The notes below the pieces were generated by a model that worked only from the letters and a program-made list of their open reading frames with translations, had not been told where the DNA came from and did no database searches. Positions 1,611 through 63,999 of a DNA stretch of 64,000 nucleotides are shown here, piece after piece (within the stretch, counting starts at the first letter, position 1; every line of letters starts with the position of its first letter). Source of the DNA: Acetobacter musti (GTDB lineage Bacteria; Pseudomonadota; Alphaproteobacteria; Acetobacterales; Acetobacteraceae); contig NZ_WOTB01000008.1 in NCBI RefSeq assembly GCF_011516835.1, positions 62,001 through 126,000 on the forward strand, read 5' to 3'. A program made the position numbers and the translations under genes.

Positions 1611-1862
1611 TTATTCGGCGTCTTTGAACCAGACCTCGACCGGTCCTTTGATCTTCATCGCCATCGGCTTGCCGCGACGATCCAGCGTCTTGCCGACGGC
1701 GACGCGAACCCAGCCTTCGCTGATGCAGTATTCCTCGACATTGGTTTTTTCCACGCCCTTGAAGCGGACGCCGATGCCGCGTTCCAGCAGCGCCTCGTTG
1801 TAAAACGGGCTGTCGGGATCGACGGAGAGACGGTCGGGAGGAGTGGTTGTGGTTTCGCTCAT
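1611..1862 (-). CDS. DUF3297 family protein
   Basis: 83-residue cytosolic protein of unknown function. The core (PPDRLSVDPDSPFYNEALL, FKGVEKTNVEEYCISEGWV, GPVEVWFKD) matches my memory of the small DUF3297 family found in proteobacteria and its usual length. It lies 119 bp downstream of fabF on the same strand, after a GGCCGGCC/GGCCGGCC hairpin (1911-1938), so it may be partly uncoupled from the fab genes. No catalytic motif is visible. Confidence 0.85.
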   Translation of the reverse strand: MSETTTTPPDRLSVDPDSPFYNEALLERGIGVRFKGVEKTNVEEYCISEGWVRVAVGKTLDRRGKPMAMKIKGPVEVWFKDAE

Positions 1863-1910
1863 GAGAAAGTCTGTCCTGTTTCTGGACGGGCCGGACGGTC
1901 AGCACGGACC

Positions 1911-1938
1911 GGCCGGCCTTATGTCGTAGCGGCCGGCC
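1911..1938. terminator. Hairpin between fabF and the DUF3297 gene
   Basis: GGCCGGCC at 1911-1918 pairs with GGCCGGCC at 1931-1938 across a 12-base loop. There is no T-run, so termination is only a possibility; it may instead be a processing or mRNA stability structure between fabF and the downstream gene. Confidence 0.35.
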
Positions 1939-1981
1939 CGCTGATATGGGCGGCCGGGTCCCTGTTACCGGGCCTCTGGTC

Positions 1982-3289
1982 TCAGACGCCGCGGACGACG
2001 ATGCTGGCGTTGGTGCCGCCAAAGCCGAAACTGTTGGAGAGCGCGACCTTGACGTCACGCTCCTGCGCCTCGTGCGCGACACGGTCGATTGCGCTCTCAC
2101 GCGACGGATTGTCGAGATTGAGTGTCGGCGGCACAACCTTGTCGCGAATCGCGAGCATGGAGAACATCGCCTCCACGGCGCCTGCGGCGCCGAGCAGATG
2201 CCCGATCGCCGATTTGGTGGACGACATGGCGAGCTTGCCGGCATCGTCGCCAAACAGGCGCTCTACGGCCTCAAGCTCAAGGTCGTCCGCCATGGTCGAT
2301 GTGCCGTGCGCATTGACGTAGCCGACATCCGCGGGTGTGACGCCTGCGCTTTTCAGGGCGGTGTTCATGGCGCGGAACGCGCCTTCATGCCCTTCGGCGG
2401 GAGCGGTGATGTGATGGGCGTCACCGGACATGCCGTAGCCGATGATCTCACCGTAAATCTTCGCACCGCGTGCTTTGGCGTGCTCGTATTCCTCAAGCAC
2501 GACGATGCCCGCTCCTTCACCCATGACGAAGCCGTCACGGTCACGGTCCCAGGGGCGCGAGGCCTTCTGCGGCGTGTCATTGAAGGAGGTGGACAGCGCG
2601 CGGGCCGAGCAGAAACCGGCGATGCCGAGTTTGCAGACCGTTGCTTCCGCGCCGCCCGCGATCATGACGTCGGCGTCGCCGAGCATGATGAGGCGCGCCG
2701 CGTCGCCGATGGCGTGAACGCCTGTGGCGCAGGCCGTCACCGCGGAATGGTTCGGCCCCTTGAATCCATATTTGATCGAGACATTGCCCGATACGAGATT
2801 GGTCAGGGCGGACGGGATGAAGAAAGGCGAAAGACGCTTCGCCCGGCCCTCATAGACCGTGATCGATGCCTCGTAGATGGTCTGGAGGCCACCGATACCG
2901 GAGCCGATCATCACGCCGGTGGCGCAGCGATCTTCTTCCGATTCGGGTTTCCAGCCGGAATCCTCGACGGCTTCCGCCGCCGCGATCATTCCGAGATGGA
3001 TAAAGCGGTCCATCTTCTTCTGGTCTTTGACCGGAATCCAGTCAGAGATAGTCAGCTTCCCCTCGGCCGTCGGGCCTTCCGGCACTTCACCGGCGACATG
3101 CGCTGCAAGATCGCTCGGATCGAAGGTGTGGATGCGGTCGATACCGCTCTCACCTGCGACGAGGCGCTTCCAGACATTCCCGGTGCCGAGCCCGAGGGGA
3201 GTCACCATCCCCATGCCGGTGACGACGACGCGTCTCCGGCCCAAATCTGATCCAGCCGACTGCAGCAAGCTAGCCCGCTCCCTGTTCAC
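1982..3289 (-). CDS. fabF: Beta-ketoacyl-ACP synthase II
   Basis: Condensing enzyme of type II fatty acid elongation: malonyl-ACP plus acyl-ACP gives beta-ketoacyl-ACP. The thiolase-fold triad is intact: Cys187 in TACATGVHAIG, His328 in NAHGTST, His364 in IGHLLGAAG. At 435 residues it is slightly longer than usual because about 18 residues precede the normal RRVVVTGMGMVTPLG start. The assigned start is GTG at 3289; an in-frame TTG seven codons later has AGGGAG just upstream and is an alternative. It lies 52 bp behind acpP, as in most acpP-fabF pairs. Confidence 0.96.
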   Translation of the reverse strand: MNRERASLLQSAGSDLGRRRVVVTGMGMVTPLGLGTGNVWKRLVAGESGIDRIHTFDPSDLAAHVAGEVPEGPTAEGKLTISDWIPVKDQKKMDRFIHLGMIAAAEAVEDSGWKPESEEDRCATGVMIGSGIGGLQTIYEASITVYEGRAKRLSPFFIPSALTNLVSGNVSIKYGFKGPNHSAVTACATGVHAIGDAARLIMLGDADVMIAGGAEATVCKLGIAGFCSARALSTSFNDTPQKASRPWDRDRDGFVMGEGAGIVVLEEYEHAKARGAKIYGEIIGYGMSGDAHHITAPAEGHEGAFRAMNTALKSAGVTPADVGYVNAHGTSTMADDLELEAVERLFGDDAGKLAMSSTKSAIGHLLGAAGAVEAMFSMLAIRDKVVPPTLNLDNPSRESAIDRVAHEAQERDVKVALSNSFGFGGTNASIVVRGV

Positions 3290-6990: not shown

Positions 6991-8031
6991 TCACTCCGCT
7001 GCCGTCGTCAGAGCGGTGATCTCCTGGCGGAAATCCTCTTTCATGCTGATCTTCTCCAGCTCCGGCAGCCATGTTGCGTCGATCGCCCGCAGCGACATCG
7101 CCGCGATCTCCTTCACGCCCATCGAGAGTTCTCTGGCCATCGTGACATAAGCCGCGCCGATATCGGTCCCGAACATGGGCGGATCGTCGGTGCAGGGAAC
7201 CAGAAACAGTCCGGCATCCCGCATCGCTCTCAGTGTGGTCCACCGCTTTTCCAGACGCTCCGGCACGCAGGTCTGCGGACAGACCGTAAACGGAACACCC
7301 CGTTCCCGGCAGCGGCAGACAAGGGCGGGGTCCGCCATAAGATTGTAGCCATGATCGATCCGGTCGCAGCCAAGCACATCCAGGCAGGTTTCGACATTTC
7401 GCGGCGGCGCCTGTTCGGGCGTCTGATTGTCCTCGCAGGCATGCGCCGTGCACCGGAGCCCGGACGAGCGGGCCAGGGCAAAGGCTTCCCGAAACAGTTC
7501 CGGCGGTCCTCTGAACTCCGCGCAGTCCATCCCGATCCCGATCACTTCGTCACGCGGATGGGCGATGACGTCCCTGACCATCGCCAGCGCGACATCCGGT
7601 CCGAGTTCGCGGTTGACAGCCGGGATCAGTCGGCCGGTGATTCCGAACTCCTCCTTCGCCGCACGGAGACCATCGATAAATCCGTCGACCATTGTCGCGT
7701 AATCGACACCGTGAGGATAATGGTAGTCCGGACTGAAGAAAAATTCGGCGTAGCGCAGGTTTCCCTTTCTGTATCCGTCTTCCAGAGCCTCCCGTGAGAC
7801 ACGCGCGAAATCATCCCGCGTGATCATGCATGCTCCGATCACCTCCAGACGGGACAGGAAGTCATAGAAATCCGAAAACCTGTAGAACGCATCGGGGTCC
7901 GTCACGGGAAGGGCGACCCCGTTCTTCGCCGCCAGAGACATCACCGTTTCCGCGCGCACTGAACCGGCCAGGTGGCAGTGCAGATCGATTTTCGGAATTT
8001 TCCTGATGATCTCATCATTATTCACTGTCAT
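6991..8031 (-). CDS. add: Adenosine/adenine deaminase family protein
   Basis: Metal-dependent amidohydrolase that deaminates adenosine (or adenine). The 346-residue protein has the zinc ligands HCHLAGS at residue ~18, catalytic Glu in TAHACED, His in DRIDHGYN, and the Asp pair in CTDDPPMFG. The CPQTCVP segment replaces the CP.SN seen in many members, so adenosine and adenine specificity cannot be told apart by eye. Its start codon shares one base with the stop of the upstream TetR gene (TAATG), so the two are co-expressed. Confidence 0.87.
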   Translation of the reverse strand: MTVNNDEIIRKIPKIDLHCHLAGSVRAETVMSLAAKNGVALPVTDPDAFYRFSDFYDFLSRLEVIGACMITRDDFARVSREALEDGYRKGNLRYAEFFFSPDYHYPHGVDYATMVDGFIDGLRAAKEEFGITGRLIPAVNRELGPDVALAMVRDVIAHPRDEVIGIGMDCAEFRGPPELFREAFALARSSGLRCTAHACEDNQTPEQAPPRNVETCLDVLGCDRIDHGYNLMADPALVCRCRERGVPFTVCPQTCVPERLEKRWTTLRAMRDAGLFLVPCTDDPPMFGTDIGAAYVTMARELSMGVKEIAAMSLRAIDATWLPELEKISMKEDFRQEITALTTAAE

Positions 8032-12052: not shown

Positions 12053-12883
12053 TCAGACGCCGGCGGCCATGGCGACTTTCGCCATGCTCTTTTGCCGCTG
12101 CCGGATCAGCGCATAGACAATTTTCGAAGCGATGGCATGGACGCGGCCATGGGGCCGGAAACCGATCGTTTTCAGGATCATGCCGGTCACCCGGTCGATA
12201 TGTTTCTGACGATAGGCCCGGAGCGCGCGCGACATGTAGCCGGCGATGCAGCGGCGGCGGTCATAGGGCACCGAAGGGGACTCGTTGGTTGTGTAAAAGG
12301 CGGAGGCGAGTTCGTCGTCCTCGCTCTCGGTGACACGTCCGATGGCGATGCGGGCGCGGGTCCAGGGGCCGAGCCGCTCACGCTTCAGATAACGGTGCAT
12401 ATGGTCGTAGAACAGCTTGAAATGCCGGTATTCGTCGGCGGCGATCTGCTTGCAGATGGCTTTCAGGAGCGGTTCTTCGGTTGCATCCGCGAGGGCGGAA
12501 TAGAAGGAGGAGGTGCCGGTCTCCACCATGCAGCGCGCGATCAGTTCGCCGGTGCGCGAACCCCGGACGGAGGCGGTCGCGTTCAGATCGATGTGATAGC
12601 TGGACCGGTAGCGTTCGAAAGCGGCGGGGTAATCCCAGGCGGGATCGGCCAGCATCGCCCAGCGGCCGAGCGCGTCGCCATGCTGGACCTCCTCGATCGC
12701 CCAGTTATCGGCCGCCGCCTGAAACGCCTCATCGTCGGCGAACACGCGGTTCAGATAGACGGCATAGTCCACACCGTTGCGTTCCACGACAGCAGCGGCC
12801 TTTACGATGGCGACCACATCCGGGTCGACATGCGCGGGGTCGAAACCGTCCCAGTTCAGCTGATCGATGTGCCAGTGCTTCAT
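12053..12883 (-). CDS. Ferritin-like diiron protein
   Basis: 276 residues, mostly helical. Four spaced motifs give a full diiron set: VERNGVDYAVYL, WAIEEVQHGDAL (ExxH), CMVETGTSSFY and IAADEYRHFKL (ExxH). This E-ExxH-E-ExxH order is that of acyl-ACP desaturase or ferritin-like oxidases. The basic C-terminal region (about 100 residues) is of unknown role. Substrate unknown. It stands alone, with 237 bp before the M13 gene and 218 bp to the PAS-EAL gene. Confidence 0.75.
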   Translation of the reverse strand: MKHWHIDQLNWDGFDPAHVDPDVVAIVKAAAVVERNGVDYAVYLNRVFADDEAFQAAADNWAIEEVQHGDALGRWAMLADPAWDYPAAFERYRSSYHIDLNATASVRGSRTGELIARCMVETGTSSFYSALADATEEPLLKAICKQIAADEYRHFKLFYDHMHRYLKRERLGPWTRARIAIGRVTESEDDELASAFYTTNESPSVPYDRRRCIAGYMSRALRAYRQKHIDRVTGMILKTIGFRPHGRVHAIASKIVYALIRQRQKSMAKVAMAAGV

Positions 12884-13101
12884 TCCGCTTTGTCCCTGCG
12901 TTAACCACGCTCACGCACGCCCGATGATCGCTCATCATGGTGGTCTTCATCCGGGGCCGCACACAGGCCCGGCCGGACGACAGGCGGCCGCCCGGCGTGA
13001 TTCCGGCTCTCCGCCTGCCTCCAAATGCGCGCGGCGTCAAGAAAGACACGGCGCCACACCGGCCCGTCAAGCCGCTTCCGGTTACTAACGCATCGCTGTG
13101 G

Positions 13102-16124: not shown

Positions 16125-16362
16125 ACGCAGCCGCAGACGATCACGGGAATGATTCAAAGGGGTGGCCAGGGTGGCAGACCTCTGATTCTCTGAAGCCTTC
16201 TTCCGGGCCGGAAGGAATGCAGTGACAGACTGTCGGGCTTTACTCCGGCGCCCGCGCCTTCTTTCACCCGGTGCAATGCTGCTGCGATCCTGTCAGGCTG
16301 GACGCTGGCCGACGCTGTTTGCGACAAAACTCCGTTACGACGGGGGAACCGTGGAGAGGACG

Positions 16363-17226
16363 ATGCGGCAGGTCACAGCAGAACAGTCGCCTCTGTGGTC
16401 ATCGACGGCGGCCGGTGTGGCGCGGCTGCGTGCGTTGCATCAGGTTGTGGATGGTGGCGCGATCTTTCAGGACCCGCTGGCTTTGCGCATCCTCGGGCAT
16501 CAGGCCGCGCAGTATGAACGGAGTGCGCGTGAACACCCGGAGCGCGTGACCCCTTTTCGCCTGTTCATCGCCGCGCGCAGCCGGATCGCCGAGGACGCGC
16601 TGGCCGCCGCTGTGCAGCGGGGGGTGCGTCAGGTCGTCATTCTCGGCGCGGGGCTGGACACGTTCGGCCTGCGCAATCCCTTTCCGGAGGTCCGGGTCTT
16701 TGAGGTTGACCGGGCGGAAATGCAGGGCTTCAAACGGGACCGGATCGCCGCCGCCGGGCTGGACGAGCCGGAGATGCTCAGGTTCATCGCCACGGATTTC
16801 ACGCTCGGAACGCTGCGGGATACGCTGGGGGCTGGCGGTGTGGATCTTACGCAGCCGGTGTTTTTCATCTGGCTTGGGGTGATGATCTATCTCGATCAAG
16901 CCGCGATCGACGCCACGCTTGCCTGCGTGGCGGCCATTCCTGGCAGCGAAATCGTCTTCGATTACAGCGTCCCGCTGGAGAGTTTTTCCGATGCGACACG
17001 GCGCAATGTCGAAGAGCGGGCGCGCAGTGTGGCAGAGCGCGGCGAGGCCTGGGTCAGCCGGTTCTCTCCCGATGACATGCGGGCGCTGCTTGCCCGGCAC
17101 GGGCTCACCATTATGCAGGATCTCGACAAGGCGGCGATGAACCGGCGTTTCGGGCTTCCTGAACCTGCCGCGGACGAACGGGCCGGTTCGCATGTGGTCA
17201 TTGCCCGTGTGTCAGAGCCAGGCTGA
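16363..17226 (+). CDS. Class I SAM-dependent methyltransferase, leucine carboxyl methyltransferase-like
   Basis: 287 residues of the family with an O-methyltransferase/LCMT-type fold: TAAGVARLRALHQVV at the N-terminus, VVILGAGLDTFGLRNP as SAM motif I, VFEVDRAEMQGFKRDRI as motif II, VFFIWLGVMIYLD later. The start at 16363 has GGAGAGGA 4-11 bases upstream; the open frame reaching back to 16222 has no ribosome site and is poor sequence. The substrate is unknown; actinobacterial relatives modify polyketides or unknown acids. Confidence 0.85.
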   Translation: MRQVTAEQSPLWSSTAAGVARLRALHQVVDGGAIFQDPLALRILGHQAAQYERSAREHPERVTPFRLFIAARSRIAEDALAAAVQRGVRQVVILGAGLDTFGLRNPFPEVRVFEVDRAEMQGFKRDRIAAAGLDEPEMLRFIATDFTLGTLRDTLGAGGVDLTQPVFFIWLGVMIYLDQAAIDATLACVAAIPGSEIVFDYSVPLESFSDATRRNVEERARSVAERGEAWVSRFSPDDMRALLARHGLTIMQDLDKAAMNRRFGLPEPAADERAGSHVVIARVSEPG

Positions 17227-17446: not shown

Positions 17447-17878
17447 TTACGCGTTCAGCGTCGCGTCCAGTGTGATCTCTGCTTTAAACAGTTTTGAAAC
17501 CGGGCAGCCGGCTTTGGCCTTTGCCGCCAGTTCGGCGAATTTCTCCTGGGTCGCGCCCGGAACCGTTCCCGTCAGCGCCAGATGGATCGCTGGAATGGCA
17601 AATCCTCCTTCCTGCTTTTCCAGGGAAACCGTCGCCTTCGTGTCGAGCGCGGTGGCCGTGAGACCGGCCTCGCCCAGAATCAGCGAAAGCGCCATCGTGA
17701 AGCAGGCGGCATGGGCGGCTCCGATCAGTTCCTCCGGATTGGAGCCCGGTTTGCCTTCGAACCGCGTGTTGAATCCGTAGGGCTGGTCTTTCAGAGCGCC
17801 GCTCTCGGTCGAGATCAGGCCCTTTCCTTCTTTGATGGTGCCCTCCCAGTGCGCGGTGCCGAATTTTTTGATGGTCAT
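17447..17878 (-). CDS. OsmC family peroxiredoxin
   Basis: 143-residue thiol peroxidase that reduces organic hydroperoxides. The two redox cysteines are in GAAHAACFTMALS and KAGCPVSKLF, and the N-terminus KKFGTAHWEGTIKEGKG is OsmC-like. The ribosome site GGAGAA lies 7 bases before the ATG. Divergent from mqo across 387 bp. Confidence 0.92.
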   Translation of the reverse strand: MTIKKFGTAHWEGTIKEGKGLISTESGALKDQPYGFNTRFEGKPGSNPEELIGAAHAACFTMALSLILGEAGLTATALDTKATVSLEKQEGGFAIPAIHLALTGTVPGATQEKFAELAAKAKAGCPVSKLFKAEITLDATLNA

Positions 17879-18265
17879 GGTCCGTTCTCCTGTCAGTAAC
17901 CGGAATTATGGTCTCCGGAATTCCTGTCTCTGTTGATTTCTGGCCTCGGGATGAAACGCCGGCAAGGGGGCCGGGGTTGCCGGCGCAGATCTGACGAGAG
18001 CGAAAGGCAGCCCTCGCGCACGGGTCTGCCTGCGGTCCGCTCGCAAAGAGATGATGTCGTGAAAAATGGCATTCGCGTGCATACCGGAGCCCATGCACGG
18101 TTCATGCCTGCCTCGCGGAACATGCCCGTCGCCCGGCCCGGCCGGTGTGCGACGAGGGATTTCCGTGTCCGGCATGCCTGTTCCGGTCGCCCCTGCCGGG
18201 CCATTATCCGGTCCTGCGGGGTTTTGCTCCACAGCCTGTCGCGCCTTACCTGTCCGGAGAGTCTC
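17879..18265. other. Divergent regulatory gap osmC-like / mqo
   Basis: 387 bases without a supported gene. It must hold both promoters. A direct repeat CCGGAATT at 17900-17907 and 17915-17922 (15-bp period) lies just upstream of the OsmC start. The mqo frame stays open through this region, but the residues are Arg-rich and not part of the family. Confidence 0.5.
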
Positions 18266-56365: not shown

Positions 56366-57166
56366 TCAACTGGTCTGTTCAGTCCCTTCTGAGACCGCCG
56401 AGACCAGGTTCCACGGAACGACCGCGCCATCCAGACGCCGCACATCCACCTTATAAACATCCCGCATGGCGGCATCCGTCATGACATCTTCCGGTCGTCC
56501 GCAGCCTGCAAGCCGCCCTTCCTGAAGAAGCGCCACCCGGTCGCAGAAACGTGCCGCGAGCGTCAGGTCGTGAAGAACGACTGTCACGCTCATGCCTTTT
56601 CGCGCCAGTGACCGGAAAAGCGCCATCACGGAAAGCGCATGTGCCGGGTCCAGCGCTGCAATCGGCTCATCCGCAAGGAGATAGGGCGCTTCCACCGCCA
56701 GAGCCCGCGCCAGCAGCACGCGGGCCAGTTCGCCCCCGGACAGCGCCGAAGCCGGTCGTTCCCGCAACGGTATCGTGCCTGTTTCCTCCATCGCCCGGAT
56801 GATCGCATCCTGATCCGCCGCATCGCCCCCGAACGGCAGCCGTCCGAGAGACACCAGATCATGCACCGCCATAGGCGGCGGTTCTCCACCATTCTGCGGC
56901 ATGAACGCAATCTGCGTTGCACGACGGCGGGACGACATCGCCGCAAGCGGCTCGTCATCCAGAACAACGCTGCCGGCATCGGGTTGCCGCAGGCCGGCCA
57001 GGACACGCAGCAGGCTGCTTTTGCCTGCCCCGTTCGGGCCGATCAGCCCCAGCACCTCTCCCCGGCGCGCCGTCAGCGACACATCGTGCAGAACCGTCAT
57101 ACCGCCGAGCGACAGGCTGATACGCCCGGCACACAGCCCTTCCGGCGCCCCGGCCGTCCCGCTCAT
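56366..57166 (-). CDS. btuD: ABC transporter ATP-binding protein, B12 importer
   Basis: 266 residues. Walker A GPNGAGKSSLL, FMPQNGGEPPPMAV Q-loop, SALSGGELARVLLARAL signature, Walker B YLLADEPIAALDPAH, switch His in VVLHDLTLAARF. Last gene of the riboswitch-led operon; start overlaps the permease stop by 4 bases. Substrate assigned from the riboswitch. Confidence 0.85.
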   Translation of the reverse strand: MSGTAGAPEGLCAGRISLSLGGMTVLHDVSLTARRGEVLGLIGPNGAGKSSLLRVLAGLRQPDAGSVVLDDEPLAAMSSRRRATQIAFMPQNGGEPPPMAVHDLVSLGRLPFGGDAADQDAIIRAMEETGTIPLRERPASALSGGELARVLLARALAVEAPYLLADEPIAALDPAHALSVMALFRSLARKGMSVTVVLHDLTLAARFCDRVALLQEGRLAGCGRPEDVMTDAAMRDVYKVDVRRLDGAVVPWNLVSAVSEGTEQTS

Positions 57167-58170
57167 GTTACGGTCCGTTTCAGACGGATCACCCGCCAGA
57201 AAAACAGCGGTGCCCCGGCAAGCGCCGTCAGCACTCCGACATGGAGTTCCGAACTTGTCGGAATTACCCGCGCCAGCCCGTCAGCGAAGAGAAGCAGCAT
57301 CGCCCCGCCCAGAAAGGACGGGACCAGCAGCCGCCCCGGACGATATCCCGTCAGAGGCCGCAGCAGATGTGGCACGACCAGCCCGACAAACCCGATCGCG
57401 CCTGACACCGCCACGCAGGACCCGACGGCGAGCGCCGCGCCGACGACGATCCGCATCTGCGCCCCGAACAGGCCGCTGCTGCGAAATCCGAGACTTTCGG
57501 CAACATCCTCTCCGAGCGTCAGCGCATCCAGCGTGCGCCGCACCGAAAACATGAGCGTGCCGCCCGCGACAATCCCCGGCAGACACAGCCACACATGAGT
57601 CATCGTCCGGTCGGCGAGAGAGCCCATCAGCCAGTGCATGATTTCAAAAGACGCATATGGACTCGGCATGAGATTGAGTGTCAGAGACGTCATCGCAGCA
57701 AAAAAACTGGTCAGCGCCGCCCCGGCCAGAAGCAGGGCCATTGTGCCGCCCTGCCCCACCAGTCCGATAAGCGCCGCGACAGCGAAAAGCGCCCCGGCCA
57801 GCCCCCCGGCAGGCAGAGCCAGCGCGACACGGGCCGAGAGTCCGGTATAAAACGTCACCACCGCCCCGAGCGCCGCGCCGCCGGAAACGCCAAGCAGACC
57901 CGGATCGGCAAGCGGATTGCGAAGATATCCCTGCAGAACCGCTCCCGAAAGCCCCAGCGTTCCGCCGATCAGCACCGCAAGCAGTGCGCGCGGCAGCCGG
58001 AGCTGCCCGAGAATGATCGCGCCGATACTGTGTCGTCCCGCGAGAAGATCACGAAAAGCATCTGTAATATCAAGGGATGTTTCTCCCCACAGGAGGGCGC
58101 AGACGAACAGGATGACAAGCCCGGCTGAGAGGGCGGCGATCAGAAAACGATCCGGGTGGCGATCCGTCAT
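57163..58170 (-). CDS. btuC: FecCD/BtuC-type ABC permease, B12 importer
   Basis: 335 residues, ~10 membrane segments. LRLPRALLAVLIGGTLGLSGAVLQGYLRNPLADPGLLGVSGGAALG and GAIGFVGLVVPHLLRPLTG are the BtuC/FecCD hallmarks. ATGA overlaps with both neighbours. Part of the btuB-F-C-D operon. Confidence 0.87.
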   Translation of the reverse strand: MTDRHPDRFLIAALSAGLVILFVCALLWGETSLDITDAFRDLLAGRHSIGAIILGQLRLPRALLAVLIGGTLGLSGAVLQGYLRNPLADPGLLGVSGGAALGAVVTFYTGLSARVALALPAGGLAGALFAVAALIGLVGQGGTMALLLAGAALTSFFAAMTSLTLNLMPSPYASFEIMHWLMGSLADRTMTHVWLCLPGIVAGGTLMFSVRRTLDALTLGEDVAESLGFRSSGLFGAQMRIVVGAALAVGSCVAVSGAIGFVGLVVPHLLRPLTGYRPGRLLVPSFLGGAMLLLFADGLARVIPTSSELHVGVLTALAGAPLFFWRVIRLKRTVT

Positions 58171-59027
58171 CGGCTGGCCTCCAGTGCCTGGCGGGCTTTG
58201 ACCAGCGCCTCAAGCGCATCGAGCGTCCCCGGCAGGCCACAAAGCCAGCGCGCCGCGGGAACGACGAGCCGGTGCGGACCGGAAAACGCGCTCCGCAGAG
58301 CCGGACTGTTCAGCATCGCTCCGGCCAGTGAAACACCGCTGTCGGAAGGGTCGGGGATCAGCAGGTCTGGCCGGCCGGCGATCAGAACTTCCATCGGCAG
58401 GGTCTGCGTGTATCCGTCACCATGTGTCACCGTGAAATTGACGAATCCCGCGTGACGCAGCACGTCGTCCGGCAGGGAATCCCGCCCCGTCAGCCAGCCA
58501 TTCGCCGTATAGATCGCCGCGACGGGCGCGCCGGCGGCGGGTGACGTGGAAAGACGCGCCAGGCGCGCGCCGAACGCCCGGATCAGCGCCTCGCCCCGCT
58601 CCGGCGCGCCCAGCAGTTCCGCCATACGCCGGATCTGTTCAGGGATTTCGGCCAGACTGCTGACCGGCGCGAACGTCTCCACCCGCGCGCCCACCGACCG
58701 GGCGGCAAGCAGGGCGGTTTCAGTCGTGAACGTCCCGCCGAGAACGAGATCGGGTTTCTGAGCCAGCAGGACTTCGGCATCCGGACGAATCACCGGAAAA
58801 TGCCGCGCCTGATCACAAAGCATCGCACTGGAACAGTCCCGCGACAGCACCGTCAGCCCCGCGATCTGCTCCGGTCGCGCCAGCAGCATCAGCAGCTGGT
58901 CCGTGCAGAGATTGAGAGAAATAACGCGGGTCGGCGCTTTTCCCTGAGCCATGTCGGCAAACGATGTCCCGAACGCGAGCAGTCCGGAAAGCGCGGCCAC
59001 GACACTGTTCCGGACCGCGCGCCGCAT
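58167..59027 (-). CDS. btuF: Periplasmic substrate-binding protein, B12 importer
   Basis: 286 residues. Signal peptide (VVAALSGLLAFGTSFADMAQG), class III periplasmic fold: RVISLNLCTDQLLMLLARPEQIAGLT, ALLAARSVGARVETFAPVSSLAEI. One base separates the btuB stop from its ATG. A glutamate/arginine contact set cannot be judged by eye. Confidence 0.85.
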   Translation of the reverse strand: MRRAVRNSVVAALSGLLAFGTSFADMAQGKAPTRVISLNLCTDQLLMLLARPEQIAGLTVLSRDCSSAMLCDQARHFPVIRPDAEVLLAQKPDLVLGGTFTTETALLAARSVGARVETFAPVSSLAEIPEQIRRMAELLGAPERGEALIRAFGARLARLSTSPAAGAPVAAIYTANGWLTGRDSLPDDVLRHAGFVNFTVTHGDGYTQTLPMEVLIAGRPDLLIPDPSDSGVSLAGAMLNSPALRSAFSGPHRLVVPAARWLCGLPGTLDALEALVKARQALEASR

Positions 59028-59028
59028 T

Positions 59029-61128
59029 TCAGTAGCTCAGTGTAAAGCCGGCATAGCCGCCGCGACCTGGCTGCAGATACCCCAGTGAAGGTTCATACTG
59101 CCGGTTCAGCAGATTATCCGCGCGGACAAATACGGTGACATAACGGTTGATCTTATAGTTCGCGGCGATATCGATCGTGAAATAGCCGTGTCCTTTCGCG
59201 CAGGTGGCGCAGGTTGCATAACCGATGACCGGAAGGTCGCGCCAGCCGCTGGTGTAGAGGATGTTGCCGGAGAATGTCAGATTCCGGACGGGTGTCCATG
59301 TCGTGTTGAAATTGAATTTATGCTGCGGACGGCGCTGAAGTTCACCACCTGTCGACTCATCCCGCGTGTGCGTCCAGGTGTAGTTCAGATTAAATGCCAG
59401 GCTCTCAAGCGCTTTCCAGTTCAGGAACGCCTCGACGCCATACATCCGCGCTTTCGCGACATTGGCGTAAGAGTAAATGTAATTTCCTGAATCGATCGCG
59501 AGTGAGGACTGGATCAGATTCTGCACGCGGTTGTCATACCAGGTCGCGCCGAAATTCAGATGATTGTTCAGAAGTTTCTGCTCGACGCCGGCATCGTAGC
59601 CGATCAGCTTCTCGGCCCGGAGTTTCGGATTTCCGACTTCCGCGTAGCCTGCACCGACCTGACTGGCGAAGAGCTGATACAGTGACGGGCCGTGAAAACC
59701 CGAGCCGGCGCTGGCCTTGATGATCGTGCCGGTTCCGGGGACATGAATTGCCGGGGCCACGCGCCATGTCACATGGTTGCCGTAGCGGGAGTTCGCATCG
59801 TAACGGATGTTGGCAGCACCATAGAGAATCTTATTCCAGTTGCCCTGATACTGTCCGTATCCGGCGGTCGTATCCATGCTGGCCGAGTTGTTGTACCCGC
59901 TGTCCCATTCGCTGGCCGGAGTGTGGCTGGTGTTGAACGTGTCGTGGAAATGCTCCGCGCCGATCAGCAGAGAACCATACTGTCTGAGATTGAATGTGCC
60001 GTGCCAGTCAATTTTCAGGCGTGACGAGCGGTAGTAATCCGGGTCCGGATTAGCCGGGCTGCCATAATAGGTTCCCGTCTCCGTCCAGCGGTTGCGGTTG
60101 GTCATGTAGCCCAGCCCGATCACCTGCTCGAAAAAACCGCCGCCGGATACGAGATGCGCCGTGCCGCGGACCACGGCCTCGTTGCTGTTGTTTTGCTCTC
60201 TGAGGCCGGAATAGCCGTATTCATTCTCGCTCTGCAGATCGTAGAGGGAATAGGAGTGATAATTGCTCTGCACCAGCCGCGATGTCAGGCCGACATCGAA
60301 ATTATCCGTGACATCGTAACCGAGACGGATATTCGCGCTTCTGTTGTCGTTCCGGTTGCCTTCATGCCGCTGCCGCCAGTCGGCGCCGTAGGCCCGCTCC
60401 GCATAGGCCGGAATGCTGTTGAATCCATCCATACGGTAGTGTGACAGATCGATATTGTAATGGAAGCGGCCCGCGCTGCCCCTTGCTCCGAACGCCTGAT
60501 TGAATGTGCCGTAAGCGCCGCCTTCGATACGTACGAATGGCTTAAACCGTCCCTGCCCCTGTGCGGTCGTGATATCGATGACGCCGGCCATGGCGTCCGC
60601 GCCGTAAAGGCCGCTCTGCGGTCCGCGCAGAATCTCGATCCGTCCCATGCCGTCAGTCGTGAACTGGGCGGGATCGAATGAACCTGCGGGCGTGCTGCCG
60701 TCGTTGATGTCCATGCCGTCCAGGCGAACCTTTACCTGGTTCGCATTCCCCCCGCGCATGAAAATCGATGACGTGGCGCCGGGGCCGCCGGACTGGACCA
60801 CATTCATGCCCACCTGACGGGCGAGAATATCCGACAATCCGCGACGCTGCTGGGTCTGGATCTGCTCTTCCGTGATGATCGTCATGCTGGTGCCGATCTC
60901 ATCGGCCGGGGTCGGGCGGCGCGCGGCACTCACCGTAATCTGTTCCGGCAGGCCTGTATTCACCACTGTCTTCGGTTTTGCCGGGACTTTTGCCTCACCC
61001 GTTACGGGGGCACCGGACGTCTGTTTCTTTCCGGTGTTCTGCCGGGCCGGTGTATCGGCGCGAGCCTCATGCAGAACAAGCGCTGGCAGAAAGGTGGAGG
61101 CAATCAGAAAACTACGGAAAACAGACAT
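59029..61128 (-). CDS. btuB: TonB-dependent receptor, BtuB-like vitamin B12 receptor
   Basis: 699 residues. Signal peptide, TonB-box-like PEQITVSAARRPTPADEIG, plug with GMNVVQSGGPGATSSIFMRGGNANQVKVRLDGMDIND and GRIEILRGPQSGLYGADAMAGVIDITT, barrel to the C-terminal Phe-rich YAGFTLSY. The upstream cobalamin riboswitch is the main support for the ligand. First gene of the operon. Confidence 0.9.
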   Translation of the reverse strand: MSVFRSFLIASTFLPALVLHEARADTPARQNTGKKQTSGAPVTGEAKVPAKPKTVVNTGLPEQITVSAARRPTPADEIGTSMTIITEEQIQTQQRRGLSDILARQVGMNVVQSGGPGATSSIFMRGGNANQVKVRLDGMDINDGSTPAGSFDPAQFTTDGMGRIEILRGPQSGLYGADAMAGVIDITTAQGQGRFKPFVRIEGGAYGTFNQAFGARGSAGRFHYNIDLSHYRMDGFNSIPAYAERAYGADWRQRHEGNRNDNRSANIRLGYDVTDNFDVGLTSRLVQSNYHSYSLYDLQSENEYGYSGLREQNNSNEAVVRGTAHLVSGGGFFEQVIGLGYMTNRNRWTETGTYYGSPANPDPDYYRSSRLKIDWHGTFNLRQYGSLLIGAEHFHDTFNTSHTPASEWDSGYNNSASMDTTAGYGQYQGNWNKILYGAANIRYDANSRYGNHVTWRVAPAIHVPGTGTIIKASAGSGFHGPSLYQLFASQVGAGYAEVGNPKLRAEKLIGYDAGVEQKLLNNHLNFGATWYDNRVQNLIQSSLAIDSGNYIYSYANVAKARMYGVEAFLNWKALESLAFNLNYTWTHTRDESTGGELQRRPQHKFNFNTTWTPVRNLTFSGNILYTSGWRDLPVIGYATCATCAKGHGYFTIDIAANYKINRYVTVFVRADNLLNRQYEPSLGYLQPGRGGYAGFTLSY

Positions 61129-61144
61129 GGCGTTTTACAGGTCT

Positions 61145-61190
61145 CGCGGTCACGTTAGCTGCCACGAGAACGCATCATCGCCAGACCGCG
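61145..61190 (-). promoter_or_regulatory. Hairpin in the riboswitch expression platform
   Basis: CGCGGTC (61145-61151) and GACCGCG (61184-61190) form a 7-bp stem between the aptamer and the btuB start; it could mask or expose the start region depending on the aptamer state. Confidence 0.35.
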
Positions 61191-61254
61191 TCATAAGACA
61201 GTCAGCGATATCGCCCGCCAGAACACCCCGTCCAGCGTTTCCCGGTCGCAACCA

Positions 61255-61451
61255 ATGATGACGGCAGGTTTCCTGGCTCGCGGCGTTGTTCCCTGCGCAA
61301 CCTTCCCGGGAGAGACCTTCCCAGTGGCCCGGACCAGACTGTCCGGTTACAGCGCAGTCATACCGCTTACAGTTGCGGGGACAGCCGCAGCTTTGGACGT
61401 CTCCATCCGCACTGCATTCCCTTTTGACCCCGGATCAGCGGGGCACCGTCG
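61255..61451 (-). promoter_or_regulatory. Cobalamin (adenosylcobalamin-type) riboswitch
   Basis: Read on the minus strand: GGTGCCCC...AAAAGGGAA near the 5' side, GCTGTCCCCGCAACTGTAAGCGG in the core, CCACTGGGAAGG, and the B12 box GCGAGCCAGGAAACCTGCC near the 3' side. All in the right order and spacing for the cobalamin aptamer. Upstream of btuB; B12 binding should reduce expression of the importer. Confidence 0.93.
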
Positions 61452-61456
61452 CGGCC

Positions 61457-61485
61457 TTATCTCTGCCCCGATCTGTTTCTGTCAA
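61457..61485 (-). promoter_or_regulatory. Promoter of the btu operon
   Basis: Minus-strand TTGACA (61480-61485, perfect -35), 17-bp spacer, AGATAA (61457-61462). The predicted transcription start at about 61450 falls exactly at the 5' end of the riboswitch aptamer. Confidence 0.75.
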
Positions 61486-61792
61486 GAAACCGTTCCGCAT
61501 ATCTCACCGGACAGGCCGGTCCGCAGACCTCTGCCCGGCAAGGCCGCCGGTTCCGGGCGCCGCCGTCCAGGGGTGTTATATCTGATGAACATAACTCAGG
61601 TGTTGCGCCAGAGGATCGTCCGGCGAACGAAAATCCATCACCGGGATCAGCGTCCGGCCTGTTGTCCCGGTGGATCACCCACAAAACAGAGTGGCCATGC
61701 ACCGGAACCTGGAAAATCCGCATCCGGACGTGCAGCGGATCACTGGCCGCCAGTCATCGGCGGCGGTCACCACCAGCCGAAAAGGATTCCTC
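61486..61792. other. Gap upstream of the btu promoter
   Basis: About 307 bases between the btu promoter and the stop of the unknown 439-residue gene. No gene, repeat copy or clear operator seen. Confidence 0.4.
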
Positions 61793-63112
61793 TCAGAGCT
61801 CGTTCCAGGGTTGCAGACCACGAACCGTCTCCTTCTGCACGCGCCGGACCGACGGTCGCTCATCCGCGGGCGGCGGCAGCAGGGCGAGATAATCCACCAG
61901 CAGCGCGGACGGCCTGCGAAGATCGATCAGCGATTCCGCCGTCCGCATCCGTTCAACGATGGACAGGCCAAGATGAACGTCATCCAGCACGCGCTTCGCC
62001 AGACGTTTGAGCGAGTCCCGGTAATCCGCCGGACGCGACAGGCCCCCGCCGATCGAGGCCAGATTCCGCAGACGCCGGTTGCCCCGCTCGAACGCAATCA
62101 TCAGGGAGTCAGGCCAGGACGCCCGCGGCCAGTGAATCAGCAGATCTTCCGCCACCAGCAGATCGAACTGCAGCCGGCATGCACGCGCCGCCACGCTCCT
62201 GAGCTGCGCGGCGGGAAGCACGTGCACAGAGCAGCGATTCGCAAAGCGGATCAGAGACAGAATAGTGGCCAGGTCCGGCACCTCCAGCCACAATGTCACG
62301 CGACGTCCCTCCCGCGCCACGGCTTTTACCCCTTTCAGGTCTTGCAGAATCTTCGTGCAACGCGCCTCAAAAAGCGGGAAAACCTCCGCCAGCGCCTCAT
62401 CGCAGGCGGCGACATAACGGCCCTTATGCGCGAAGGACAGCGCAACGGTCCGCGCCGCCGGGAGCACGATGTCGATCTCATTGCGCGCCGCGAGAAGCAG
62501 CGGCATCGCGAACGTCCAGGCCAGTATCCCTGTGCCGGCGATACGGGTCAGCGCGGCCAGCAGTCCGGACCGGTCCGCCACGGCCGGCACAGGGCTGCTC
62601 CCGTGCGGAAACAGGAGTGGCGCCTCGGCGAACAGGACTGCAAGCGATGGCAACAACCCGGTAATGTCGGTGGTCTTCAGCCCGGCCGTCACCGCCATCT
62701 CGTCCAGCACGGTCGGCGGCACAGGACGCGACAGCACCGCCGCCGCCCGCGCCCAGAGCAGTTCGGACGCACGCTGCACCGGGTCGGCCCATTCCGGCTC
62801 TTCCAGCGGGTCACGCGCCGGCAGCCTGCTCCCGTTTCCCGATTCAATCAGCCGCAGAACCAGATCGGCCTCAGGGTAACAGTCGAACATCCAGATCCGC
62901 AGGGGTTCGAGCAGCGTATCCGGAATGCGGGTCGTCGATTCCTTCAGGGACCGGCGCCACTGCGCGGACGGCACGACCAGCGGCCAGAGCGGCCGGAACA
63001 GCAGATCGAACGGCATAATGCCCGGCCCGGCAACGGAGACTTCAGCTTCCTCGTCGCCGGCGGACCGGGAAAGGAACGACGCACGGCTCGTCGCGGACAG
63101 TCCCATTTTCAC
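61793..63112 (-). CDS. Hypothetical protein, 439 residues
   Basis: Leu/Ala/Arg-rich, mostly helical, no signal peptide. Scattered blocks such as SAQWRRSLKESTTRIPDTLLEPL, LLLAARNEIDIVLPAARTVALSFAHKGRY, and LASIGGGLSRPADYRDSLKRLAKRV show no motif I recognise. The start overlaps the stop of the upstream unknown gene by 4 bases (63109-63112), so they are co-translated and probably functionally linked. Confidence 0.7.
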   Translation of the reverse strand: MKMGLSATSRASFLSRSAGDEEAEVSVAGPGIMPFDLLFRPLWPLVVPSAQWRRSLKESTTRIPDTLLEPLRIWMFDCYPEADLVLRLIESGNGSRLPARDPLEEPEWADPVQRASELLWARAAAVLSRPVPPTVLDEMAVTAGLKTTDITGLLPSLAVLFAEAPLLFPHGSSPVPAVADRSGLLAALTRIAGTGILAWTFAMPLLLAARNEIDIVLPAARTVALSFAHKGRYVAACDEALAEVFPLFEARCTKILQDLKGVKAVAREGRRVTLWLEVPDLATILSLIRFANRCSVHVLPAAQLRSVAARACRLQFDLLVAEDLLIHWPRASWPDSLMIAFERGNRRLRNLASIGGGLSRPADYRDSLKRLAKRVLDDVHLGLSIVERMRTAESLIDLRRPSALLVDYLALLPPPADERPSVRRVQKETVRGLQPWNEL

Positions 63113-63999
63113 GCTCTCCCCGCATCGAGTGCGATTTCAGCGCGGAGCAGCCGCTCATTGCGCTCCGAAAGCCAGACGGCATAATCGATTTCCTGCGGCC
63201 AGCCGGAGAGTCCGGGCCGGGGCGTGTTCGCGCCCGGCATGTCCTGCGTTCCGGCACTGTTCCGGTGACCCAGCACCTGGGCAAGCGCCGCGATATCCGC
63301 CACCGCATGCGCCCGGCAGGGTGCGCGCGCCACTTCCCGCGCCATCAGGCAGAAGCGGTTCCAGCCGGCAAGCAGACCGAGATCAGCTGCAAACGGATTA
63401 CGCGCCGGGACCAGCGCGGTAAGGCGATCCGGCATGACCAGAAGCTCCGCCAGACTGGTATAAAGCGCCTCGATCCGGGTCAGGGCGTCTTCAGCCAGAC
63501 GCAGACACCGCCCCGCGCTGGTGCCGTTATAATCCGGTGGCAGAATGTCGGACAGGCCGCCGATCACCTCGCGCATCAGCGCCAGCCGGGGCGGAACCCG
63601 TGCCTCCGGCACGCCTCCCTTCTCCGGTGCACCATTTCGCTCCGGCCGCTGAGGCGAAAAGCGGGGCCTGAATGGCTGCCTCACCGGACGGGGAGCCCCG
63701 GAACCGGAAGATGTAGGACGAAACGAACCGGAACGGGAAGACGTGGCAGGCCTGAGTATGGAAGACAGGTCGGACGGGGCGATCCCGGTCTGGAGAAGCA
63801 CACCGGCCAGCCAGTCCGGCAGATCGGGCGATGCTCCGCGCGGGATGAACATGGAAACGAGCTGGTCGCGCAGCACCCGCTGGCGGCGGCCCGCCACATC
63901 GGCCACCCGGCGCGCGAGAACCTGGGCCTCCCGGCCGGCAAAGCCCGAGAGCGCTGTCGCGCGGGCGCTGTCCTGCACATCCCGCACCGTCACCGGCTT
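63109..63999 (-). CDS. Hypothetical protein, possibly 5'-truncated at the window edge
   Basis: At least 294 residues. An in-frame GTG lies at 63993 (MTVRDVQDSARATALS) but the frame stays open to the window end (KP before it), so the true start may be outside. Helical N-terminal part (GREAQVLARRVADVAGRRQRVLRDQLVSMF), a Pro/Arg/Ser-rich linker (~85-125), and a C-terminal helical part (LAEDALTRIEALYTSLAELLVMPDRL). No family recognised. Coupled to the next gene by an ATGA overlap. Confidence 0.65.
   Translation of the reverse strand, partial: KPVTVRDVQDSARATALSGFAGREAQVLARRVADVAGRRQRVLRDQLVSMFIPRGASPDLPDWLAGVLLQTGIAPSDLSSILRPATSSRSGSFRPTSSGSGAPRPVRQPFRPRFSPQRPERNGAPEKGGVPEARVPPRLALMREVIGGLSDILPPDYNGTSAGRCLRLAEDALTRIEALYTSLAELLVMPDRLTALVPARNPFAADLGLLAGWNRFCLMAREVARAPCRAHAVADIAALAQVLGHRNSAGTQDMPGANTPRPGLSGWPQEIDYAVWLSERNERLLRAEIALDAGRA

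Follow-up and report, generated by a model that had tools for sequence, protein, structure and literature searches.

A predicted cobalamin riboswitch with a covarying expression platform precedes a btuBFCD-type import operon in Acetobacter musti

Results

Four import genes behind a predicted cobalamin riboswitch

The window, a stretch of 64,000 nucleotides from Acetobacter musti (contig NZ_WOTB01000008.1), carries on its minus strand four transport genes that are preceded by a structured leader and a candidate promoter. The features are listed in the direction of transcription, together with the evidence on which each assignment is based.

61480 to 61485, minus strand: -35 element TTGACA (exact string; TTGAC is conserved before P1 in relatives)
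61456 to 61462, minus strand: -10 region, AGATAA (N17; 61462-61457) or, better, GATAAG (N18; 61461-61456) (sequence)
61450, minus strand: predicted transcription start at the first base of P1 (GACGGU) (promoter geometry)
61246 to 61465, minus strand: cobalamin riboswitch aptamer RF00174, the outermost bases of which overlap the promoter (Rfam match)
61376 to 61380, minus strand: L5 loop CCCCG, predicted partner of L13 (conservation)
61263 to 61281, minus strand: B12 box GCGAGCCAGGAAACCUGCC (Rfam match and sequence)
61240 to 61252, minus strand: platform strand A GUUGCGACCGGGA, candidate antisequestor directly 3' of P1 (RNAalifold and covariation)
61216 to 61237, minus strand: P13 hairpin with the L13 loop CGGGG at 61230-61226, complementary to L5 (covariation)
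61158 to 61169, minus strand: platform strand B UCUCGUGGCAGC, which pairs with A or C (covariation)
61142 to 61149, minus strand: strand C CCGCGAGA, 3' hairpin arm before the btuB start and candidate ribosome-binding region (covariation)
59029 to 61128, minus strand: btuB, TonB-dependent receptor, 699 aa (Pfam plug and barrel)
58167 to 59027, minus strand: btuF-like periplasmic binding protein, 286 aa (PF01497)
57163 to 58170, minus strand: btuC-like FecCD permease, 335 aa (PF01032)
56366 to 57166, minus strand: btuD-like ABC ATPase, 266 aa (PF00005)

The order btuB-btuF-btuC-btuD and the tight joints given in the initial annotation of this DNA are correct: btuB and btuF are separated by a single base (TGA-A-ATG), and btuF/btuC as well as btuC/btuD overlap as ATGA. 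The PF01497, PF01032 and PF00005 genes stand together and all exceed the Pfam cut-offs, which makes them an importer of the FecCD or BtuCD type.

The match to RF00174 at 61465-61246 (minus strand) reached 106.9 bits against a gathering score of 31.5 (E 8.8e-26), covered the model completely (1-189) and was the sole Rfam match above the gathering score in the 64-kb window. This covariance search bears out the cobalamin riboswitch that had been proposed from the letters of the DNA, and the proposed span of 61255-61485 agrees with the match to about 10 bases. The sequence GCGAGCCAGGAAACCUGCC at 61263 to 61281 was recognised through what we take to be the consensus of the B12 box. Between the aptamer and btuB lies a stretch of 117 nt. 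We infer from the sequence that the leader RNA is a cobalamin riboswitch, presumably of the AdoCbl type.

Distribution of the locus among relatives

RF00174 was found in 51 of the 61 genomes searched. Relatives of BtuB with an E-value of 1e-60 or better were present in 18 of 41 genomes, and all 18 had RF00174 just upstream (15 from the same genus, the window included, and three from the same class). For a broader comparison we used 49 named loci, which are the 50 from the BtuB alignment minus a Flavobacteriales locus with 25% identity (L103). The B12 box was detected upstream of btuB in 48 of them; the motif missed L101, which is among the eight loci tested with RF00174, all eight of which carry it. 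All four genes, btuB, btuF, btuC and btuD, were present at 40 of the 49 loci. Seven Acetobacter loci (L087, L088, L089, L091, L092, L095 and L096) have btuB with the riboswitch or B12 box, and the sequence stored for them gave no match to btuFCD; that stored for L086 and L094 ends within the locus.

Several other arrangements were seen alongside. In four same-genus genomes, cobalamin riboswitches occur as pairs that face apart with about 100-130 bp between them (G004:C176:46932-47449, G008:C2:34543-35074, G023:C7:176826-177348 and G010:C200:8068-8615), which suggests two divergent B12-controlled units in each case. Upstream of the riboswitch in the window, two overlapping open reading frames of 439 and 294 aa (61793-63112 and 63109-63993, both on the minus strand) gave no Pfam or NCBIfam match. 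Both are conserved upstream of btuB in A. fallax (76 and 69% identity) and A. oeni (62 and 55%).

The Komagataeibacter medellinensis plasmid pGXY010, typed as conjugative, contains five cobalamin riboswitches within 18 kb (L052; NC_016037.1, 135256-153352), at 1806-2039 (+), 7663-7881 (+), 12769-13006 (+), 16152-16386 (-) and 17797-18041 (-) of that locus. RF00174 stands upstream of btuB there as well, and two of the riboswitches lie in front of genes with a MetE annotation. The counterparts of these genes in the Novacetimonas copy (L053) have PF08267, the N-terminal domain of MetE, as their only match and stand in pairs with Rieske oxygenase genes. Such pairs could be a B12-independent methyl-transfer route, and they differ from MesD/MesX as these appear in passages of PMC7857596. 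One PF08267-type protein had its sole match in the genome of the window at the metE locus. Divergent to btuB in L052 and L053 lies cobQ, for cobyric acid synthase, and in L053 also a DUF6925 gene. Public records give the product of the btuC orthologues on both plasmids (10938-11945 in L052, 8938-9945 in L053) as 'iron ABC transporter permease'.

Predicted promoter and transcription start

The string TTGACA-N17-AGATAA, which the initial annotation had read as the promoter, is found exactly at 61485-61457 (minus strand) and occurs once in the window. By itself it is weak evidence, since three sites with up to two mismatches were counted against 1.06 expected, a number that 6 of 100 shuffles reached. 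Its two halves fared differently. The -35 element is perfect and has a conserved spacing in relatives, whereas AGATAA matches TATAAT at one of six positions and fits poorly as the -10 element; GATAAG at N18 matches at four of six. A sigma-70 scan of 60900-62000 reported no site.

The comparison with relatives appears to be far stronger evidence for the predicted promoter than the string alone. Of the 15 btuB loci from the same genus, among them that of the window, 12 have TTGAC 35-38 nt upstream of the first base of P1; the exceptions are L037, with TTGAC at 46, and L045 and L046, which are without it. Across the 49 named Acetobacteraceae loci it lies 34-38 nt upstream of P1 in 43, although these are not independent events because the loci are related and some perhaps represent one species twice. 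The six exceptions are L090 (TTGAC at 46), L098 and L099 (none), and L076, L079 and L101, in which the P1 motif (L076, L079) or the B12-box motif (L101) failed. On both strands of the same-genus loci, the background frequency is 98 TTGAC per 147,598 positions. As for the -10 region, A. oeni (L059) has the identical AGATAAG at the identical spacing, A. fallax (L097) has TAGAAA at N16, and in seven Gluconacetobacter loci the hexamer at N16 is TATGAA or TATGTA. Several further Acetobacter have an A+T-rich hexamer closer to the -35 element, for instance GATAAG at N14 in L039. TTGACA also occurs upstream of the aptamer in the leader of metE in the genome of the window.

Promoter geometry offers a good prediction of the transcription start: it would fall near position 61450, where the P1 strand GACGGU begins. 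The RF00174 match begins 15 nt upstream of this position and extends over the -10 region, so that its first bases would be untranscribed.

A conserved expression platform between aptamer and btuB

The architecture had been described as complete. The -35 element, the riboswitch and the operon of that description stood, but it had left out a conserved expression platform, which occupies 61252-61142 between the aptamer and the btuB start. We aligned 47 distinct platforms drawn from 63 of 64 leaders, and three helices show covariation. In P13, 99.1% of cells are paired, six of the seven pairs change on both sides, and 64 double-change cells compare with 12.9 in shuffles. The helix of strands B and C is paired in 96.8% of cells (17 double-change cells against 2.9), and that of strands A and B in 99.1% (11 against 1.8). 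None of 500 shuffles reached the observed number for any of the three helices, in tests that ignore kinship among the leaders. Other statistics are less distinct. Four B:C pairs show double changes, a number reached by 17 of 500 shuffles, while 4 of 500 reached the number of double-change pairs in A:B. The number of pair types is no higher than expected by chance in either helix (reached by 447 of 500 shuffles for B:C and 203 of 500 for A:B). When A:B is slid by -3 columns, 77.2% of cells are still paired; its inner half, GUUGC:GCAAC, is near-invariant with two double-change cells and is still 99.1% paired after the same shift.

Unconstrained RNAalifold picked A:B together with P13 and thereby gave B the partner A instead of C. 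As A and C both pair with the shared strand B, the two helices are mutually exclusive, and one of them lies next to the btuB start. The central four bases of A, B and C read CGGG/CUCG/CGAG in 29 leaders, CGAG/CUCG/CGAG in five, CAGG/CCUG/CAGG in three and CAGG/CCUG/CGGG in two. With G-U allowed, 42 of the 47 leaders retain all four pairs in both alternatives. A, B and C thus change together, so that A mimics C in the manner expected of a sequestor-antisequestor pair.

Folding energies point the other way. When the platform was folded by itself under constraints, A:B came out ahead in just 8 of the 47 leaders; for the window, B:C was favoured by 4.3 kcal/mol. The energy of the whole leader of the window was ordinary in comparison to shuffled sequences (z -1.36). 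Both observations count against a switch between A:B and B:C.

The loop sequence CGGGG of L13 is kept in 46 of 47 leaders and CCCC of L5 in all 47, and the two are complementary. Since both are invariant, covariation cannot speak to the predicted kissing interaction between them. The strand on the side of the start codon contains AGGA in L039 and GAGG in L033; in the window, strand C has only GAGA, 13 nt upstream of the AUG, so that a clear Shine-Dalgarno sequence is missing.

Similarity of the gene products to known transporters

Among the 25 models listed for BtuB, the two best were TIGR01779 (TonB-B12; 233 bits, cut-off 599.7) and NF007926 (192.2 bits, cut-off 836), both of which stayed below cut-off. 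Its plug domain matched E. coli BtuB best among solved structures (1.5e-29), followed by the colicin I receptor as the next type (6.7e-18). We therefore classify the protein as BtuB-like by similarity and context, with the equivalog cut-off not reached.

The importer components are less distinctive. For BtuC, the best of 16 models was NF003001 (BtuC PRK03784; 199.2 bits, cut-off 334), and among solved permeases FhuB (4.4e-41) and HmuU (2.5e-40) scored slightly above BtuC (7e-37). The top model for BtuD was a heme ABC ATPase (234 bits, cut-off 261), followed by the corrinoid ABC ATPase NF007082 (214.1 bits, cut-off 537); NF002981 gave 135.7 bits (cut-off 281). The NCBIfam matches of BtuF included no B12 model, and its sequence profile was closer to heme binders (1.3e-13) than to the best BtuF (1.8e-6). 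An alignment-based structural model of BtuF (pLDDT 85.3; a single-sequence model was poor, with 37.4) showed the fold shared by heme, B12 and siderophore binding proteins. Foldseek ranked heme binders first and the first BtuF at 14, while a second structural comparison gave nearly equal values for the heme binder RhuT (Z 22.7) and BtuF 5m29 (Z 21.7). In the sequence alignment, the GYQR/GYMR stretch of the heme binders RhuT and HmuT, the tyrosine of which we take to be the axial heme ligand, is without counterpart in this BtuF. In A. fallax the family models gave the same outcome as in the window, with B12 models best for BtuB and BtuC, both below cut-off.

Two possible deciders between B12 and heme were dropped: the BtuF model, with heme binders first in Foldseek and a near tie in the second comparison, and the family models, the best of which are B12 models for BtuB and BtuC yet below cut-off. 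A BtuF probe over genome contigs returned 77 pattern matches and no relative.

Overall, BtuF, BtuC and BtuD resemble B12 importers no more closely than importers of heme or iron. The statement in the initial annotation that the riboswitch fixes the substrate as B12 was too strong, because a riboswitch tells how genes are controlled and not what is carried. For the three proteins, neither family models nor solved relatives allow a choice between B12 and heme or iron chelates.

B12-related gene content of the genome

The genome contains one RF00174 match besides that of the window. It precedes metE (L001 1501-1699, minus strand, on G000:C14), which was recognised from its translation and by a match to the MetE N-terminal domain at the same place. 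On the opposite strand of this locus lies an open reading frame of 345 aa that by eye resembles an ArsR-type regulator fused to a methyltransferase. Further, metH exceeded its cut-off, cobQ is present and an adenosyltransferase family match was found. CobN and CobS gave no match in the genome (assembly 99.95% complete), CobM/CbiF a single match below cut-off, and class II ribonucleotide reductase, looked for as a B12 user, only matches below cut-off. These genes look like the set carried by a B12 scavenger that has a B12-independent alternative.

Discussion

The locus most probably combines a promoter, an AdoCbl-type riboswitch, a translational switch between A:B and B:C, and a btuBFCD operon for the import of cobalamin or other corrinoids, a combined reading that we hold with considerable confidence. 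A housekeeping-type promoter would start the btuBFCD mRNA at the P1 stem or a few bases off. At low cobalamin, strand A, 3' of P1, would pair with B and leave the region before the btuB start open; A:B could form first because B is transcribed ahead of C. The outer membrane receptor and the ABC importer would then be made. At sufficient cobalamin, the bound aptamer would hold P13 through the L5-L13 kissing loop and disfavour A:B, upon which B:C would pair beside the start codon and close the start region. Translation of btuB would drop and that of the remaining operon likewise, with Rho perhaps helping. When made, the importer would bring in cobalamin or other corrinoids for the methionine synthase MetH.

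The direction of this switch, with the ligand turning the operon off, would follow that of E. coli btuB, from which it is taken by analogy. There, according to passages of PMC11162775, the ON state is a helix of anti-Shine-Dalgarno and anti-anti-Shine-Dalgarno strands, and in the OFF state the Shine-Dalgarno sequence is sequestered and Rho then ends transcription. The sequestor and antisequestor scheme is treated in general in passages of PMC2258182, the kissing loop and corrinoid selectivity of cobalamin riboswitches in passages of PMC9600662; the sole riboswitch passage seen in PMC6528568 concerns c-di-GMP.

The platform may be a variant of this lineage, and our searches of open-licence literature found no description of this platform for acetic acid bacteria. 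We tentatively suggest, as a possibility that we ourselves regard with some doubt, that Acetobacteraceae btuB leaders share a lineage-specific platform in which A mimics C, both compete for B, and A:B encloses P13. The ligand would act through the topological incompatibility of A:B with the L5-L13 kiss, and no strand of the aptamer would serve as antisequestor.

As for the cargo, it is very likely that the operon imports B12, judging by the riboswitch that precedes btuB in relatives, the similarity of BtuB and the gene content of a B12 scavenger. A rather unlikely but still sizeable alternative is that the importer carries other corrinoids, such as cobinamide, other cobamides or cobyric acid, to at least the same extent as cobalamin. 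The presence of cobQ in the genome, and divergent to btuBFCD on the Komagataeibacter and Novacetimonas plasmids, would fit this alternative, as would the acceptance of several corrinoids by many cobalamin riboswitches (passages of PMC9600662). Without a CobS match in the genome, however, the remaking of cobinamide into cobalamin looks incomplete, and specificity is not readable from sequence.

We consider it unlikely that the riboswitch mainly terminates transcription when cobalamin is bound, either by an intrinsic hairpin in the leader or by Rho on untranslated mRNA. The E. coli btuB riboswitch does trigger Rho-dependent termination (passages of PMC11162775), and the window has a terminator-like site at 61220-61203 (minus strand). 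This site has, however, only six pairs, three of them G-C; its 5' arm shares bases with P13, and the 3' arm falls within a variable part of the platform. Terminator-like sites on both strands of the region numbered three, compared to 0.9 (sd 1.0) by chance, and covariation favours the hairpin adjoining the start codon. An intrinsic terminator as the main output was dropped to a minor rival, with the one weak site on the minus strand.

Import of heme or an iron chelate under mere control by cobalamin is highly improbable: in sequence and in Foldseek, heme binders are the solved proteins nearest to the binding protein, the permease leans slightly the same way, the best ATPase model is that of a heme importer and database products read 'iron ABC transporter permease', but BtuB is nearest to B12 receptors by a wide margin, BtuF nearly ties with heme binders in the second structural comparison, the binding protein lacks the GYQR/GYMR stretch of RhuT and HmuT, and riboswitch and operon are kept together across genera.

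Taking cobalamin import under translational control as the preferred reading, genes labelled 'iron ABC transporter' in public records gain a functional interpretation, most likely as B12 carriers. The acetic acid bacterium looks like a B12 scavenger in which, by analogy, ample B12 would switch off both import and metE. The covarying three-strand platform could serve as a clean, testable example of how an aptamer is coupled to translation outside the enterobacteria. The finding opens no new type of system; it is an ordinary B12-sensing switch before a B12 import operon.

Among related systems, Komagataeibacter and Novacetimonas plasmids carry the same four genes in the same order, with a BtuB 79% identical to that of the window, yet unlike in the window these operons are plasmid-borne and divergent to cobQ. 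In E. coli, we take the location of btuFCD to differ from the btuB operon, whereas here btuFCD belong to the same operon. Compared to E. coli btuB, furthermore, the Shine-Dalgarno sequence is weak and the function predicted, strand A lies directly 3' of P1, and A:B encloses P13. The common features are the position of the cobalamin aptamer before btuB, as in the AdoCbl riboswitch of E. coli, and an anti-Shine-Dalgarno strand that pairs exclusively with either the Shine-Dalgarno or the anti-anti-Shine-Dalgarno strand, the equivalent of A, B and C here (passages of PMC11162775, which also gives a kissing loop in E. coli btuB through the cited title of Lussier et al. 2015). A plasmid of Methylobacterium extorquens CM4, also an alphaproteobacterium, has btuB after a cobalamin riboswitch and btuF, btuC and btuD in the next locus tags; passages of PMC3621897 on it mention no expression platform, and its BtuB is only 33.8% identical to that of the window. 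A riboswitch and btuB with btuF, btuC and btuD beside them is thus an arrangement already published for M. extorquens CM4 (passages of PMC3621897).
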